Source: Marchantia polymorpha subsp. ruderalis
Lineage: Eukaryota; Streptophyta; Marchantiopsida; Marchantiales; Marchantiaceae
Assembly (NCBI GenBank): GCA_037833965.1
Contig: AP031352.1
Coordinates: 13,682,501-13,746,500 of the forward strand
DNA: 64,000 bases
Direction: 5' to 3'
Shown here: positions 1 to 52,618 of the stretch, piece by piece
Layout of the letters: every line of letters begins with the position of its first letter
Position numbering within the stretch: position 1 is the stretch's first letter
Program-made: the position numbers and the translations under genes
The notes under the pieces: generated by a model
The model's database searches: none
What the model was told of the DNA's origin: nothing
What the model saw: the letters and a program-made list of their open reading frames with translations, nothing else

Positions 1-1740
1 CATTCGGCCTAATGCTTTCGGCTTTGTTCCCTTGCGTACAACTAGCATTCCGGTGAACACGGACCAATTAAAAAATCAATATATGTTTGTTTTCTTTTTC
101 TTTCACCTCGAGACAAAATAGTAGACTTAGGGCACCATTAAGAGGACCTACGAGTCTGAAAACACGGTTTCAAACCATCAACGTAAGGGATAATCTTCCT
201 TATTTTAACTATCGAATGTCTTCGAAAAGACATCCGATAAAATTGGAAAGATACAGAGAAAATTAGCATGGCCCTGCGCAAGGATGACACGCACTATGGT
301 TGGTCTGATTTCAAAGTGAAAAAAGCATTTCTTTTGACAAACAAATGACAATCTTGAATACTTTTATTATCCTGGTTCTTGTTTGGTACAAGAATGACTT
401 TAGTTGATCGCATTCATTCCCATAAAACCTCTTTTTTGTCATTATTGTTATCCTCCCAAAAGCATCCCCAGGAGCCTCTTGCGCCATTCAAATGATACTT
501 AAAAATATGTGACGTTCTTAATCCATAAAGTCTTGTCATCTGATACATGTGATAAAAATTATTCAAAACATTAAAATATGAAAAAATGTGAAATCACAAT
601 AAGATTAGTAATATTTGTAAAAAAAGAAAATAAATTTACGCTCCAATATCTAGATTTTATCTCGCCTAAAAGCTAATTATTTTACTCCACATCCACGCCT
701 TCAATCGTCTTCATAGCAAAGCAATGTCCTTGTGACATCAAAAATGTACTTCAACAACTGATCTTCATATCATCTTATCAAACGATTGCATTCTTCTTGC
801 ATGATGAACTCAAACAATATATCTTCAGGTTTGAAAATTACAGAATAGCGTGTAAAAAGTGTCATCATATATATGCATCAAGAATAATGAGATTTACATC
901 ATATTCTTCTCTTCAGCTCGTATTATCTCATCCACTGTATGCACACTCCTCGCAAACATATTTTCATATCACGTTAATCGAATCTGTCTTAAAACCTTTC
1001 ACTATCCTCACCTCAAGTATATTGCAATGAAAATGATTGTTTGAGTAAATATACGATTTTAATACTGAAATTGTCTCTTGTGAGGTTGACATTTTTTTAA
1101 TTGAACCTTTCCCTCCTCTCAAGCTGCTCTCTTTGAATCGTCAAAGTTCATACTAGTATTCATTGCCTACCACTTCCAATCAACGTTATCATTTTCCTAT
1201 TTAATCCCATTCCCAACACTTTGGCCCGTAAGATAAAAATCTCATAAATCGGAATAATCACTCCAGTTTATTGCAATCTTTGTCTTGGCGTGAGCTTTCT
1301 CACAGAAATATGGCAACACATGGTTCATCCTCATGTTCCACCCATTTTGTAAATTCTATCGCCGTCGAACATGGCTTCAGAATAGACACTGGTCTATTCT
1401 ATTCTGAGAAAGTATTCCTATAGCATAGCAAAATGTGGGCTCCTACGTTCATTAGTCCTTGCTTGGCCTCAATTACTGCGAGTACCAATCTGTAAGTCCA
1501 AACCCCAAATAAATATCCCATAAAAACCACCAAAAGAAAACAACCGTGGTCGAAACGATCTAACCATGGTACTACAACTGTAACCGATCATTGTACCGAG
1601 ATTTGTGGGCGCATGAGATTCTCATACTGTGCTCGTGACGACGACAACCTCGCAACTGCAACAACCACCATGAATACATTGTCATGATTACAAGGTTCAG
1701 GTACTGTGGCGAAATCGATCTCTGCGGTGAGGATTGCTCA

Positions 1741-3540: not shown

Positions 3541-4327
3541 TCAAAATCTAGAAGGGAAGAAGGACTTTGCATCTAACTCCTTCACATACTCCTCGAAATC
3601 TAGCTCTTCACCGTCTTTTTCTTCCACCAACATCTGAAGTACTTCCCAAATATCTTCTATCATCAAGTTACCAACCCCAGGTTCTATGTTCTCCAGCTTT
3701 TCATTCAGCGTTACACTCTCCTCCAAATGTGTGTTGGTGGCAGCGGGCGACAAAGAGCTCTGGCCATTTACAGGCTCCGCAAGATGCAGCACCTCCTCCA
3801 ATGGGATATGCTGGTGGTGCCCGGGTTGCGCTTCCTGCAGTTCATTGCACATATAGGCTGTCCCAACTTGGCATACCATATCATCCTGTAAAATAAGTTC
3901 AAACAAATAAACATCGAAAAACACTAAAGAATTTAGTATAAGTACAAAGAGAATATAATAAAGAGTAATACCTTTCTGGAGAAAAGTGTGTGAAGGGGCA
4001 CAGAAAATAATGGAGTGTTAGTAGCGGTAAGTTTTGTCGAAGTTGAAGGCTGATGATCGAACAACTCCAGAGCTTTCCGCCTGTATGCTGCAGCTGCCTC
4101 CTCTTTGTTGCCAAATGTACCTAGCCAGGCACGCTTTTTCGTAGCTGGGTCTCGAATTTCCGCAACCCATTTTCCCCACTTCCTTTGACGAGCTTTTTCG
4201 TAGCTGGGTCTCGAATTTCCGCAACCCATTTTCCCCACTTCCTTTGACGAACTCCCTTGTACTCGCAATACCGATTCTCGGGTCCTCCCTTGCCACTCCT
4301 GCGAGGATAAGTGTAGACTTCACCCAT
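3541..4327 (-). pseudogene. AP2/ERF (DREB-type) transcription factor gene broken by a 59-bp tandem duplication
   Basis: The family is a DNA-binding transcription factor acting in the nucleus, often in stress responses. Translation starts at 4327 (MGEVYTYP) and enters an AP2 domain whose first strands read [19 protein letters not shown]; the second half reads RAWLGTF and then [16 protein letters not shown]. The WLG core and alanine-rich helix are typical. Exon 1 ends at 3972 (AAAG followed by GTATT). Exon 2 starts at 3885 after a TTTTACAG acceptor and ends at a TGA at 3541-3543, adding an acidic C-terminus (LDFEEYVKELDA). A perfect 59-bp direct repeat (4133-4191 and 4192-4250) lies in the middle of the domain. 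Because 59 is not a multiple of three, the frame is lost right after DPATKK and soon stops. With one copy removed the two exons would be in frame for 213 residues. I infer a recently disabled gene; an assembly error in the repeat is the main alternative. Confidence 0.75.
4133..4250. repeat. Perfect 59-bp tandem duplication inside the AP2 domain
   Basis: Two adjacent identical 59-bp units (4133-4191, 4192-4250) cover the codons for the [16 protein letters not shown] part of the AP2 domain. I see no base difference between the copies, which suggests a recent event. The repeat does not create an obvious short intron, because the unit lacks an AG-GT junction that could splice one copy out. Confidence 0.9.
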
Positions 4328-4377
4328 ATTGCCATACAAAAGTGACAGATGGGTACGATTGATATGTATTGATCTAG

Positions 4378-4385
4378 TATTTATA
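4378..4385 (-). promoter_or_regulatory. TATA-like box of the AP2/ERF gene
   Basis: On the minus strand the sequence reads TATAAATA about 50 bases before the AP2/ERF start codon, a normal spacing for a short plant leader. The identical element occurs in the other arm of the inverted repeat. Confidence 0.55.
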
Positions 4386-5347
4386 CTCTCCCAACATCGA
4401 AGGTAGCAAAACACAGGTGTCAAAAATCTCCCAACACCGAGGAAAGTGAAACGCAGATGACAAATGGCAAAAATTTAGTTCTAGTCTAGGACAGATTTCT
4501 AACTCCAGCGTAGATTACAGAGTTTATCCGCACATCCATTATAGCATGTGCGGATAAATCGAGAGACTAAAAAGACACTGTTCCTCGAAATAGGGAGAGT
4601 TTGCATGAAAAATGCACTATATCTAATCTGAAGAACAACCTGAACTCAAGGTCGTTTCTGCTCCTTGTTTAAAGGAGCAGGTTCAAGGTTTGGTGTTTAA
4701 TGAGGTCGCTGTGATGTGCTCATGGCTTCGGCCGGTATGGCTCACGGTCGCTTGTGGTGATTTGTGTTTTTTGATTGTACATTATATTGTTCGGGGTGAC
4801 CGATCAGTGTCGATGAGCGCGAGCGACCACAGAATTCTGGGACGTGGGTGCTCCGAAAGTTTGGGCCTCGGAGCTTCTGGAGATGAACGACCACATTCAG
4901 TTCAATGCAACCACTGATCGATTGACTGATCAGTCACCCCGACCAATATAATGTACAATCAAAAAACACAAATCACCACAAGCGACCGTGAGCCATACCG
5001 GCCGAAGCCATGAGCACATCACAGCGACCTCATTAAACACCAAACCTTGAACCTGCTCCTTTAAACAAGGAGCAGAAACGACCTTGAGTTCAGGTTGTTC
5101 TTCAGATTAGATATAGTGCATTTTTCATGCAAACTCTCCCTATTTCGAGGAACAGTGTCTTTTTAGTCTCTCGATTTATCCGCACATGCTATAATGGATG
5201 TGCGGATAAACTCTGTAATCTACGCTGGAGTTAGAAATCTGTCCTAGACTAGAACTAAATTTTTGCCATTTGTCATCTGCGTTTCACTTTCCTCGGTGTT
5301 GGGAGATTTTTGACACCTGTGTTTTGCTACCTTCGATGTTGGGAGAG

Positions 5348-5355
5348 TATAAATA
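5348..5355 (+). promoter_or_regulatory. TATA-like box, mirrored copy in the right arm
   Basis: TATAAATA lies about 50 bases upstream of the mirrored start codon at 5406. If both copies work, transcription runs outward in both directions from the palindrome. Confidence 0.5.
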
Positions 5356-5405
5356 CTAGATCAATACATATCAATCGTACCCATCTGTCACTTTTGTATG
5401 GCAAT

Positions 5406-5555
5406 ATGGGTGAAGTCTACACTTATCCTCGCAGGAGTGGCAAGGGAGGACCCGAGAATCGGTATTGCGAGTACAAGGGAGTTCGTCAAAGGAAGTGGGG
5501 AAAATGGGTTGCGGAAATTCGAGACCCAGCTACAAATCACCACAAGCGACCGTGA
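5406..5555 (+). pseudogene. Truncated mirrored copy of the AP2/ERF gene start
   Basis: This frame repeats the first 43 residues of the AP2/ERF protein (MGEVYTYP to EIRDPAT) and then runs into unrelated sequence, ending after NHHKRP at a stop. It lacks the WLG core and helix of the AP2 domain, so it cannot encode a working DNA-binding protein. It carries its own copy of the promoter. The junction at 5533/5534 joins AP2 coding sequence to a second copy of the inner part of the same arm. Confidence 0.8.
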
Positions 5556-5589
5556 GCCATACCGGCCCGAAGCCATGAGCACATCACAG
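5534..5589. repeat. Direct repeat of 4970-5024 fused to the end of the right arm
   Basis: The sequence beginning AAATCACCACAAGCGACCG and running through GAAGCCATGAGCACATCACAG occurs at 4970-5024 inside the right arm and again here. This second copy has one extra C. It follows the truncated AP2 fragment directly, which marks a template-jump junction. Confidence 0.85.
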
Positions 5590-5603
5590 ATACCTCATTT
5601 TCG

Positions 5604-5641
5604 AGTCATGCCATGCCATGCCATGCCATACCATACCATAC
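5604..5641. repeat. Short (CATGC)n / (CATAC)n tandem repeat
   Basis: Several five-base units change from CATGC to CATAC along the run. It sits next to the rearranged AP2 locus, just outside the fused repeat. Confidence 0.75.
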
Positions 5642-7404
5642 GTAGATGCAAGGTCCCTACGTCGCACTACAGTGTATACACGGTCTCTTCTTCTTGTGGG
5701 AGAAGTGTTCCTGGCTCTGTCCTTCTCTTCTCCTCTCCTGTTCCCTCAGGATTTGGTTTCTTTTTGCATGGCGAAATTAGACTTTTCCTGGCAGCGGAGG
5801 TCAGACATGTACTGTTTACAATATGTACATTTGACGTATGTACATCGTATATAGTCCCGAACTCAACAAACAATGACATCCGAAATCTGCTTCGAAAATT
5901 GAAAGTGCATACAACTGTTACCGGTGACTTTCGACATAAGATATAATACAGAAATTTTGAAGATAAAAATCATCTAAATCTAGTTTAATGGAGATCGTCC
6001 AAGCCTCAAACAAATATAGTTCCCCATGCTAGACATCCTATTCATTTGCTGAAGGTAATAAAGCCGGAATATCTATCTACATCCGACACAAAAACAGCGT
6101 TGCGCATACATGGAAAATCCTTCAGTTCCAAGCAATGGCGGACCTAGGATTTTTCTGGTGGGGGCTCCCCGCCAGGTATTTTTGGATTTCTTTTTCACAA
6201 TATGTAGCCCCTTCTTGGGCTTGGGGTTCTTCAGATTTCCTCTTCTCGGATGACAAAACATCTCTATACTTCATCATGAAACCACTGCAACATCCATCAC
6301 TTATAAAGCATCGCACTTTATACGGAATATATCTTTGACGAAAAGGTATATTGTGTATATACCTTTTCGATCTAACAAAACAATGAAACCAAAAAATCAC
6401 TTCGTAAAATGAAAGTGCAAACAGACGTCAATTATAGAAACGTTGTAACCCGCTGTCAACCCGTATCATTTACAACATACGAATATACGTATACTTTTTT
6501 ATACATACGGGCATGACTCAAATAAAAAATGCAAATGAGGCATGATCCAGCCTAAATTAAACTAAGATAGAGTAGACCTTCATTTAGGGTTAGTTTAGAC
6601 GATGGGCAAATGTGACTTTTCTTAAGCATTTAGAGTGCATTTCATGGGCAACATACCTTTAGTTCAATTACTGCCTTGCCTTTTTCAGGTAAAGGCGTAA
6701 ATTAGTATGTTCTGAAGTTCTTATGGGGTCTTCAGCGTGCGTGCGCTCATCCGGTCTTCATGGTACTATATGCTGTGGCAGTGCTCCTTACAATGTCCGC
6801 ATGCTTCCGAGTTATGCGACAATACGTCCCTAGATATTCTTTCAAAAAGTGAGCATTTTCAATCCCTTGTGGATCAGAGCTCAAAGTATATTATATCAGG
6901 TAAAAGGTCCGCTACATTTCTCCAAGTAAGATCTGTCATATATTTGTCTTCAACTCCAATCGAACTGCAAACTTTCGCACAAAGTGTCGTACTGAAGCCT
7001 CAAATTTGATAATCAGGTGAGAGGTTCAGCGGACCTCTTCCGAACAAGTTCACAATTTGATTCCTCTCGTATTTATCATGACGATCTGCAAAATCTGCTT
7101 GACCGTGCCTAATAACGAGGGAAAGCCTAGCACTCATGCTTAGACAGAGCCTGCGGTCCACAAGATCCTAAATCACTACTGTAGGTGTCATGTGACACTG
7201 TACAAGAAAAATTGTAGGTCCTAAATTTGCTTATGTAAAGACCATGAACATGGGCTTACATTATTACATATTCATACTTGAAGCCGGACCAGAAGCTTCA
7301 TGCAGCTGGAAATGCTGTCAGCAGATCAGGTTGATAAACAGACTGTGTATAGGCCTCTTCAGAAATTTCCTCGCACAGGATGTCCCAAGGACGGGGTCAT
7401 TAGA
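5642..7404. other. Intergenic stretch without a supported gene
   Basis: No domain or splice-supported coding region is visible here. A small perfect hairpin lies at 6339-6369. The right end probably holds the 3' untranslated region of the nucleosidase gene. Confidence 0.55.
6339..6369. repeat. Small perfect inverted repeat (12-bp arms)
   Basis: CGAAAAGGTATA at 6339-6350 and its exact reverse complement at 6358-6369 flank a 7-base spacer. It may be a remnant of a miniature transposon, but I see no other signature. Confidence 0.6.
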
Positions 7405-50805: not shown

Positions 50806-52618
50806 TCACGCAGCAGTCTTTTGCTTCTTCGCAACTCGGTACGCACCGACAACACAGGCGTGGTCACGCTCGAAGGGCTCCAGTGTCACCTGCTCAGATG
50901 GTTTAAATTGTTCCTTTTGCAGTTTCTTCACCTCCGCCGCAAAAACGGCTTCCGCAGGGACGGTAGAATCGATACAGTTGGCCTGCAGACAGAACTCAAG
51001 TCAGCTAACTTTACAGATTTAGAGTTCACTGTAATACGTGCGTTCAGATGCGCAAGTTCTCAGGTGGAGGAAGGCCGAAAGCATACCTTGATTGAGATGA
51101 CAAAGTGACCACCGTTCTTCAAGAAGTTGTGGGCATTCAAAGCTACAATACGTGCCTGCGGGAAATAGCAGCAGCAGTGGACAACAAGTATCCAATGTAT
51201 CTTGTTGTCAGGTTTAAGCCGTATACCGTACGAACATATGACAGTCGGAAGACGGTACGACGGTGTCAGAGTAAATCAGTGTATAAATCATATCGGAGGG
51301 AGAGTCCGAAGTCCTAAGGCAGCAAGTGGTACCTACAGAATCGTAAGGCTAGCGCACGAATATCACATAGTCGAACTATCTACAGGCCCGTGAGGGCAAA
51401 AGCGTCAGAGTCGGATTTATCACTTATAATTAAGTGAAGGGGAATCCATAAATTCTTCATACGCTTGTAGTTGGAAAGCCGCAGTGGCTGAGTGAAAAGG
51501 AAGAAAAGAAAAACTTTTAGCATGGACTCAAACAGCACCTGATCAGGTTGGGCAACATCTGCGAAAATTACGTCGACCATTCCCATCAACATACGATATC
51601 TGTTGGGATGTCTGGCATCCTCGATAATGGGAATAACATTTGTCCGCTTCTTGGCCATGTTAACCAAGTCACGTCCACTTCGGTGAGAAAATTCCACAGC
51701 ATAAACAATACCAGTAGGACCGACGAGGTCGGACACATGAGAGACGGTAGTACCAGACGCAGCTCCCAGATACAGGACATGGGAACCTGGTTTCTGCAAA
51801 CGATAGTAACATAGAAAGTTAAAAAACACTCAAAGTGCAAACTAGGTTACGAGGGAATTCAATAGCGACAATGCACTCTATCAGCTGACAAACCAGCACC
51901 ACGATCACTGGTACGAAAACATTTCGCCTCGTGTCAGATTTCAAGGAAGAAAAGAGTAGGAAACTTGCAACGAAAATCTTACAATCCAAATGTTGTCTAC
52001 TCCTCCCAGGATTGCAGCCGCAAGCTTCGACCTGAAGGGGTTCCACACTCTGTACTCCACCTTCGCTCCAGGCTCTCCTCCCTCAACCTCGACACTAATC
52101 CTCTTCTCTCCGTACACGCTCTCTCCGGGTACCATGTTCTTGGTGACCAAAGCGTCTTCCTTCGCCTTGGCAACGAAAACACCTTCGTGTCTATGAGGTT
52201 CAATTACTACCTTCGCTCCTCCCTTCATTCCTCCTCCTCTTCCACCGCGGCCACCCCCTCGACCGCCTCCTCTACCACCTCCCCTTCCTCCAGGAGGTCC
52301 ACGACCTCCACCTCTTCCACCACCAAAGCTTCGGCCTCCACCTCTTCCGCCCCTACCTCCTCCATCTCCGCCTCGTCCTCCACGGCCGCCTCCGCGGCCT
52401 CCACCTCTGAACCCACCTGCAGCAATACAGCGGAAGGAAAATGTAAGTAACAACGATGAGGGCAACAGGACCCTGACGTCGAAAGGAGCGTTTCTCAGAA
52501 TGGAGATCGGCAAATATTTCCTAAGAAATCCACAGCACAACACAGGATAAAACTTCGAGCCCTTCCTTCCAGATACCAGTCAGTTGGTGTGCTCGTAACT
52601 CGATCTTTACTTACTCAT
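50806..52618 (-). CDS. FIB: Fibrillarin, rRNA 2'-O-methyltransferase of box C/D snoRNPs
   Basis: Fibrillarin is the nucleolar methyltransferase that modifies rRNA guided by box C/D snoRNAs. Five exons fit with GT-AG borders and phases: 52618-52615 (just ATGA), 52416-51983, 51793-51539, 51155-51087 and 50982-50806. They total 939 bases, or 312 residues. The N-terminus is the glycine-arginine-rich domain ([14 protein letters not shown] to [20 protein letters not shown]). The methyltransferase fold follows: [20 protein letters not shown] (SAM-binding motif I), [44 protein letters not shown] and GGHFVISIK. It ends [20 protein letters not shown]. All catalytic motifs are present. The extremely short first exon is notable. 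Confidence 0.96.

Follow-up and report, generated by a model that had tools for sequence, protein, structure and literature searches.

A head-to-head inverted duplication of an AP2/ERF-type promoter and gene start in a liverwort, probably a young scar of fold-back break repair

The promoter and start of an AP2/ERF-type gene are present twice, in inverted orientation, in the window (the whole 64,000-nucleotide stretch of DNA that was analysed), and the locus is probably a young, local scar of DNA-break repair by fold-back rather than an evolved device. Positions 4200-4808 pair with 4925-5533 over 609 bp without a gap (pairing i+j=9733), and base-by-base pairing from 4200/5533 to 4808/4925 gave only two mismatches, just as the sequence-only reading had described; chance is excluded as a source of 609 nearly perfectly paired bp. 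The mismatches (4790/4943 and 4801/4932) both fall within the innermost 19 of the 609 bp, on the spacer side, and the outer 590 bp, checked directly, contain none. A repeat search drew the limits slightly wider, at 612 nt (arms 4197-4808 and 4925-5536). A scan of the 64-kb window for ungapped inverted repeats of at least 50 bp, separated by up to 3 kb, gave no second one except a partial echo of the 609-bp pair in a tandem copy. The locus has near-identical inverted arms around an unduplicated spacer, the arrangement by which a fold-back inverted duplication is recognized. No publication on it was found in a literature search conducted mostly at the level of search records. The features are as follows:

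3541..4327, minus strand: native AP2/ERF-type gene with two exons, broken by a 59-bp duplication (reading frames, Pfam profile, inspection)
4133..4250, minus strand: perfect 59-bp tandem duplication in exon 1, shifting the AP2 frame (copies 4133-4191 and 4192-4250 identical)
4200..4808, minus strand: left arm, the donor, with native AP2 gene start, 5' leader, promoter and upstream DNA (the gene runs on to the left of 4200)
4378..4385, minus strand: TATAAATA of the left promoter, pointing left (motif position; putative function)
4791..4942, no strand: hinge, an imperfect, gapped short inverted repeat (4791-4817 / 4914-4942), a candidate snap-back primer (alignment and controls)
4809..4924, no strand: unpaired spacer of 116 nt (no second genomic copy found)
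4925..5533, plus strand: right arm, the inverted copy, cut off inside the AP2 domain (outer 590 bp equal to the left arm; runs into filler)
5348..5355, plus strand: TATAAATA of the right promoter, pointing right (motif position; putative function)
5406..5555, plus strand: chimeric 49-aa ORF, the gene start joined to filler and then a stop (ORF list, Pfam profile)
5532..5599, plus strand: filler of 68 bp, a direct copy of 4968-5034, equal to an inverted copy of 4699-4765 (repeat search, alignment)

The left arm is taken as the donor and the right arm as the copy because the gene extends leftward beyond 4200, while filler without a gene follows 5533. The arms had been said to include promoter, leader and part of the DNA-binding domain, and the left arm does hold the ATG (4325-4327, minus strand) together with the start of the AP2 domain. 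Within the duplicated promoter, window 4523-4558 contains a short hairpin-like palindrome (TTTATCCGCACAT..ATGTGCGGATAAA), which is partly retained in a relative of the locus on C3 (L002, C3:10138884-10139258).

The complementarity score of the hinge was compared with those of 3000 control positions within the window. Inward of the first mismatch, none of the 3000 controls reached the hinge score in either of two runs; the score was 15.5 against a control maximum of 15.0 when the site was not excluded, and 18.0 against 12.0 when the site was excluded and the start moved by one base. When counting began inward of the second mismatch, the score was equalled or exceeded at 7 of 3000 control positions, and inward of the arm ends (4809/4924) it was at chance level. 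With 925 of 3000 controls as good there, a hinge extending inward past the arm ends was rejected, and the signal is confined to 4791-4808. Whether inverted homology at the junction of spacer and arm exceeds chance depends on where copying began. The placement of both mismatches in the innermost 19 bp favours a pre-existing repeat, with only the outer 590 bp copied; these 19 bp could equally be copied sequence that changed twice later, which leaves the primer role of the hinge short of proof.

The filler at the outer end of the right arm differs from 4968-5034 by one inserted base and two adjacent substitutions. It overlaps the arm end by 2 bp (AC), a microhomology, and its template strand and direction of copying are those of the copied arm. 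The two or three changes in 68 positions, against none in 590 for the arm (Fisher p 0.011 if counted as two events and 0.001 if counted as three), are probably errors at synthesis, although the filler could instead be older than the arms. In the proposed course of events, a broken 3' end just to the right of the spacer would have snapped back on the pre-existing short inverted repeat and primed leftward synthesis on its own strand, through the promoter and the gene start. Synthesis would have halted at about 4200 and the growing end re-annealed at about 4765, in one template jump, after which some 66-68 nt more would have been copied, with errors, and the new end joined to the DNA now at 5600. 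Both gene starts would now be dead as AP2 genes, and any transcript of the right promoter would at most be short and useless. Should either promoter fire inward as well, the RNA would cross the spacer, and the resulting hairpin could feed siRNAs or methylation.

The duplication had been called very young, and the 590 bp without a difference uphold this, with an upper 95% bound on divergence of 0.51%. Plant substitution rates are commonly set at 7e-9 per site per year, a value that is not specific to this species; at this rate the duplication would be under about 0.4 million years old, unless gene conversion, which could keep the 590 bp identical and so speaks against this reading of the age, has kept the arms alike. 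So fresh would the event be that hinge, template jump and filler remain legible to the single base.

Neither copy of the gene retains an uninterrupted AP2 domain, the native gene being frameshifted and the right copy truncated. In the native gene, exon 1 runs down to 3972, the intron occupies 3886-3971 (GT..AG, by inspection) and exon 2 extends to 3541. The 59-bp tandem duplication puts the AP2 frame out of register and leads to a stop, the ORF from the native ATG ending after 68 codons, so that the idea of a functional AP2 parent gene was rejected. The Pfam AP2 profile is split over two frames, with positions 2-22 matched in the frame of the ATG (25.8 bits, below the cut-off of 33.3) and positions 7-51 matched downstream (37.2 bits). 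The 49-aa ORF of the right copy matches positions 2-28 of 54 at 27 bits, likewise below 33.3. An edge of the 59-bp unit lies 8 nt from the arm end at 4200, a proximity that may be coincidence (roughly estimated at about 4%); the tandem copy may represent the opposite end of one and the same lesion, and a single episode for both duplications is possible. DREB proteins carry valine and glutamate at two diagnostic positions of the AP2 domain. The gene has the valine and replaces the glutamate by aspartate, so that the DREB part of the earlier AP2/DREB label is not established.

The subfamily to which the gene belongs consists of dispersed, frequently broken copies, and related DNA lies on C4-C8. 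A genome search gave at least 33 AP2 matches, at least 6 of them with in-frame stops. Outside the AP2-coding part, the arms match only two places in the genome search. One, C3:10138884-10139258 (L002 1501-1875), carries this promoter and gene start in an older, truncated form that is 68% identical; the other, C8:20722090-20722159, is a 70-bp promoter piece that shares 82% identity with a portion of the duplicated promoter. The C3 copy ends next to a short inverted repeat noted by eye (GGCAAGGGAGAA..TTCTCCCTTGCC). The subfamily has another inverted pair at C5:1487582-1489222 / 1490401-1492110 (L041 2583-4223 / 5402-7111), whose members are 82% identical, stand tail to tail around a 1.2-kb spacer and have a stop in both AP2 stretches. 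This pair is, by its sequence, older than that of the window and, by its orientation, the better-placed siRNA candidate. Elsewhere on C5, two AP2 loci 80 kb apart (L022 and L023, C5:19667972 and C5:19748238) are 99.9% identical over 3159 bases and have a tandem repeat of about 96 bp within them.

The frequency of such pairs was surveyed in 174,000 bases, made up of the window, seven stretches around the site, the promoter relative and AP2 loci, and four random 10-kb stretches; one stretch (L037) overlaps the window by 4.5 kb, and the sample is too small for a genome-wide rate. Inverted pairs of at least 300 bp were that of the window, the 82% pair on C5 and three in one further stretch (L044), of 756 bp at 89%, 518 bp at 89% and 339 bp at 69%. 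The window pair is the only one in the survey above 95% identity.

Among the alternatives to a repair scar, the strongest is a nascent small-RNA locus, in which transcripts that cross both arms, started from outside or by inward firing of either promoter, would fold into a 590-bp stem, be diced, and silence the locus and its AP2 relatives; we consider this unlikely. The earlier prediction that a read-through transcript would form a very long hairpin is supported, an RNA crossing both arms being predicted to fold end to end in a near-perfect structure at -1243.6 kcal/mol. The arms derive from a protein-coding gene family, as do those of young MIRNA and siRNA genes. That new MIRNA loci can arise from inverted duplication of gene sequence is described as accepted; for MIR163, computational evidence is reported there that the promoter was duplicated too (PMC1790633). 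The same account holds that long perfect stems or large fold-backs may at first give mixed siRNAs, before any miRNA, given a functional promoter nearby (PMC1790633). In Arabidopsis Ws, the PAI1-PAI4 inverted repeat is reported to mark unlinked copies, and there a heterologous upstream promoter drives the read-through (PMC3203196). Against a small-RNA locus here stands the direction of transcription, as both gene promoters face outward and give one sense only. The two identical promoters had been predicted to fire outward, and the orientation of TATAAATA in each arm agrees, neither reading through the arms. Outward gene promoters make the same sense RNA and therefore, by themselves, neither a hairpin nor complementary RNAs. 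An Rfam search of the window likewise gave no known RNA family at gathering score within the arms, the only matches being elsewhere, to U6 snRNA (window 218-313, plus strand, 70.2 bits) and to the snoRNA snoR60 (window 51401-51466, minus strand, 41.5 bits at a gathering score of 40). The duplication could seed a small-RNA gene; with the promoters oriented as they are, it would not be expected by default to act on other AP2 genes.

The reach of the arm toward AP2 relatives was assessed on the 29 AP2 loci above the curated cut-off, out of at least 32 AP2 matches besides the window gene, by searching for 21-nt stretches with limited mismatches to the coding piece of the arm (130 nt). In support of a small-RNA locus, this piece finds a match in 17 of the 29 loci when up to 3 mismatches in 21 are allowed, and in 2 of 29 when the limit is 1. 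A match of this kind is ordinary for the subfamily, and this counts against such a locus. When 11 subfamily members (L017, L018, L021-L023, L026-L028 and L031-L033) were each compared with the 28 others, 10-15 loci were matched with at most 3 mismatches and 4-10 with at most 1, so that the arm has slightly more loosely matched loci and fewer closely matched ones. At the 3-mismatch limit, some AP2 loci outside the subfamily do about as well (up to 16 of 28). Under the same limit, the promoter part (4400-4808) had no match among the 29 loci in sense, and in antisense it matched 2 of 29. The idea that AP2 relatives are specially targeted was rejected, the match not exceeding ordinary subfamily homology, and there is no sign in these comparisons that the arm is specially aimed at them.

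A broader version of the idea is that the birth of a small-RNA gene has been caught early in a liverwort, with inward firing giving hairpin siRNAs that restrain a fast-decaying AP2 subfamily, one inverted-duplicated at least twice (here and at C5:1487582-1492110, 82%); this we regard as highly unlikely. Should strains differ at the locus, they would form a clean natural experiment on the fate of a newly formed, gene-derived inverted repeat, which may provoke small RNAs and methylation immediately or stay inert.

Two further readings are very improbable. One takes the structure as a transposon or fold-back element with gene sequence incidentally contained in its terminal repeats, in keeping with the dispersed repeat that forms the right flank from about 5806 and with the pieces of AP2 relatives scattered in the genome. 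The dispersed repeat (window 5806-6552) adjoins the right arm, and 5534-6600 has at least 70 matches, 3 of them the site itself, with 40 of 88 candidates scored. The complete unit of arms and spacer had no second copy in a genome search skipping very common words, and on this ground a transposon or MITE was rejected; moreover, the left arm passes directly into the native gene and therefore lacks an outer boundary and a target-site duplication at that end. The other reading, by which a chimeric or adapter-missed read left in the assembly an inverted copy absent from the plant, draws on the fact that inverted copies are a known type of long-read error, whereas a missed-adapter fold is expected as a plain palindrome, lacking the 116-nt unique spacer, the altered bases of the filler and the unrelated flank present here. 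If the assembly is a HiFi assembly of a haploid, as reported for MpTak2_v7.1 (PMC13078153), reads would also span the 1.4 kb.

Compared with known systems, the locus shares with the inverted-duplication founders of MIRNA and siRNA genes (the Allen model, MIR163 and MIR161), as described in PMC1790633, arms from a gene family with the promoter included; in contrast to those founders, its arms are still nearly perfect and its family match is ordinary. With PAI1-PAI4 of Arabidopsis Ws it has in common adjacent inverted gene copies and unlinked relatives, but the PAI1-PAI4 copies are reported to stand tail to tail and to be transcribed through from a heterologous promoter (PMC3203196), whereas the copies here are head to head with their promoters facing out. 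In mammalian cells, small tandem duplications are reported to arise at breaks with complementary 3' overhangs (PMC8355091). The perfect 59-bp tandem copy, with no microhomology by eye, resembles these, though the reported cases are mammalian and the link to a neighbouring inverted duplication is our inference. Human fold-back inverted duplications, as described in PMC3907307, likewise have a spacer that is not duplicated and carry short inverted sequences at the inner junction, to which the candidate hinge would correspond, with spacers of 766-70,466 bp in that set against 116 nt here, and short fold-back insertions are reported at yeast breaks, mostly of 5-34 bp (PMC11724301). Unlike the human and yeast fold-back duplications, the one described here is interstitial, measures about 0.65 kb and has not cost a chromosome end; as with the filler here, templated insertions are reported at some junctions of the human and yeast cases (PMC3907307, PMC11724301).
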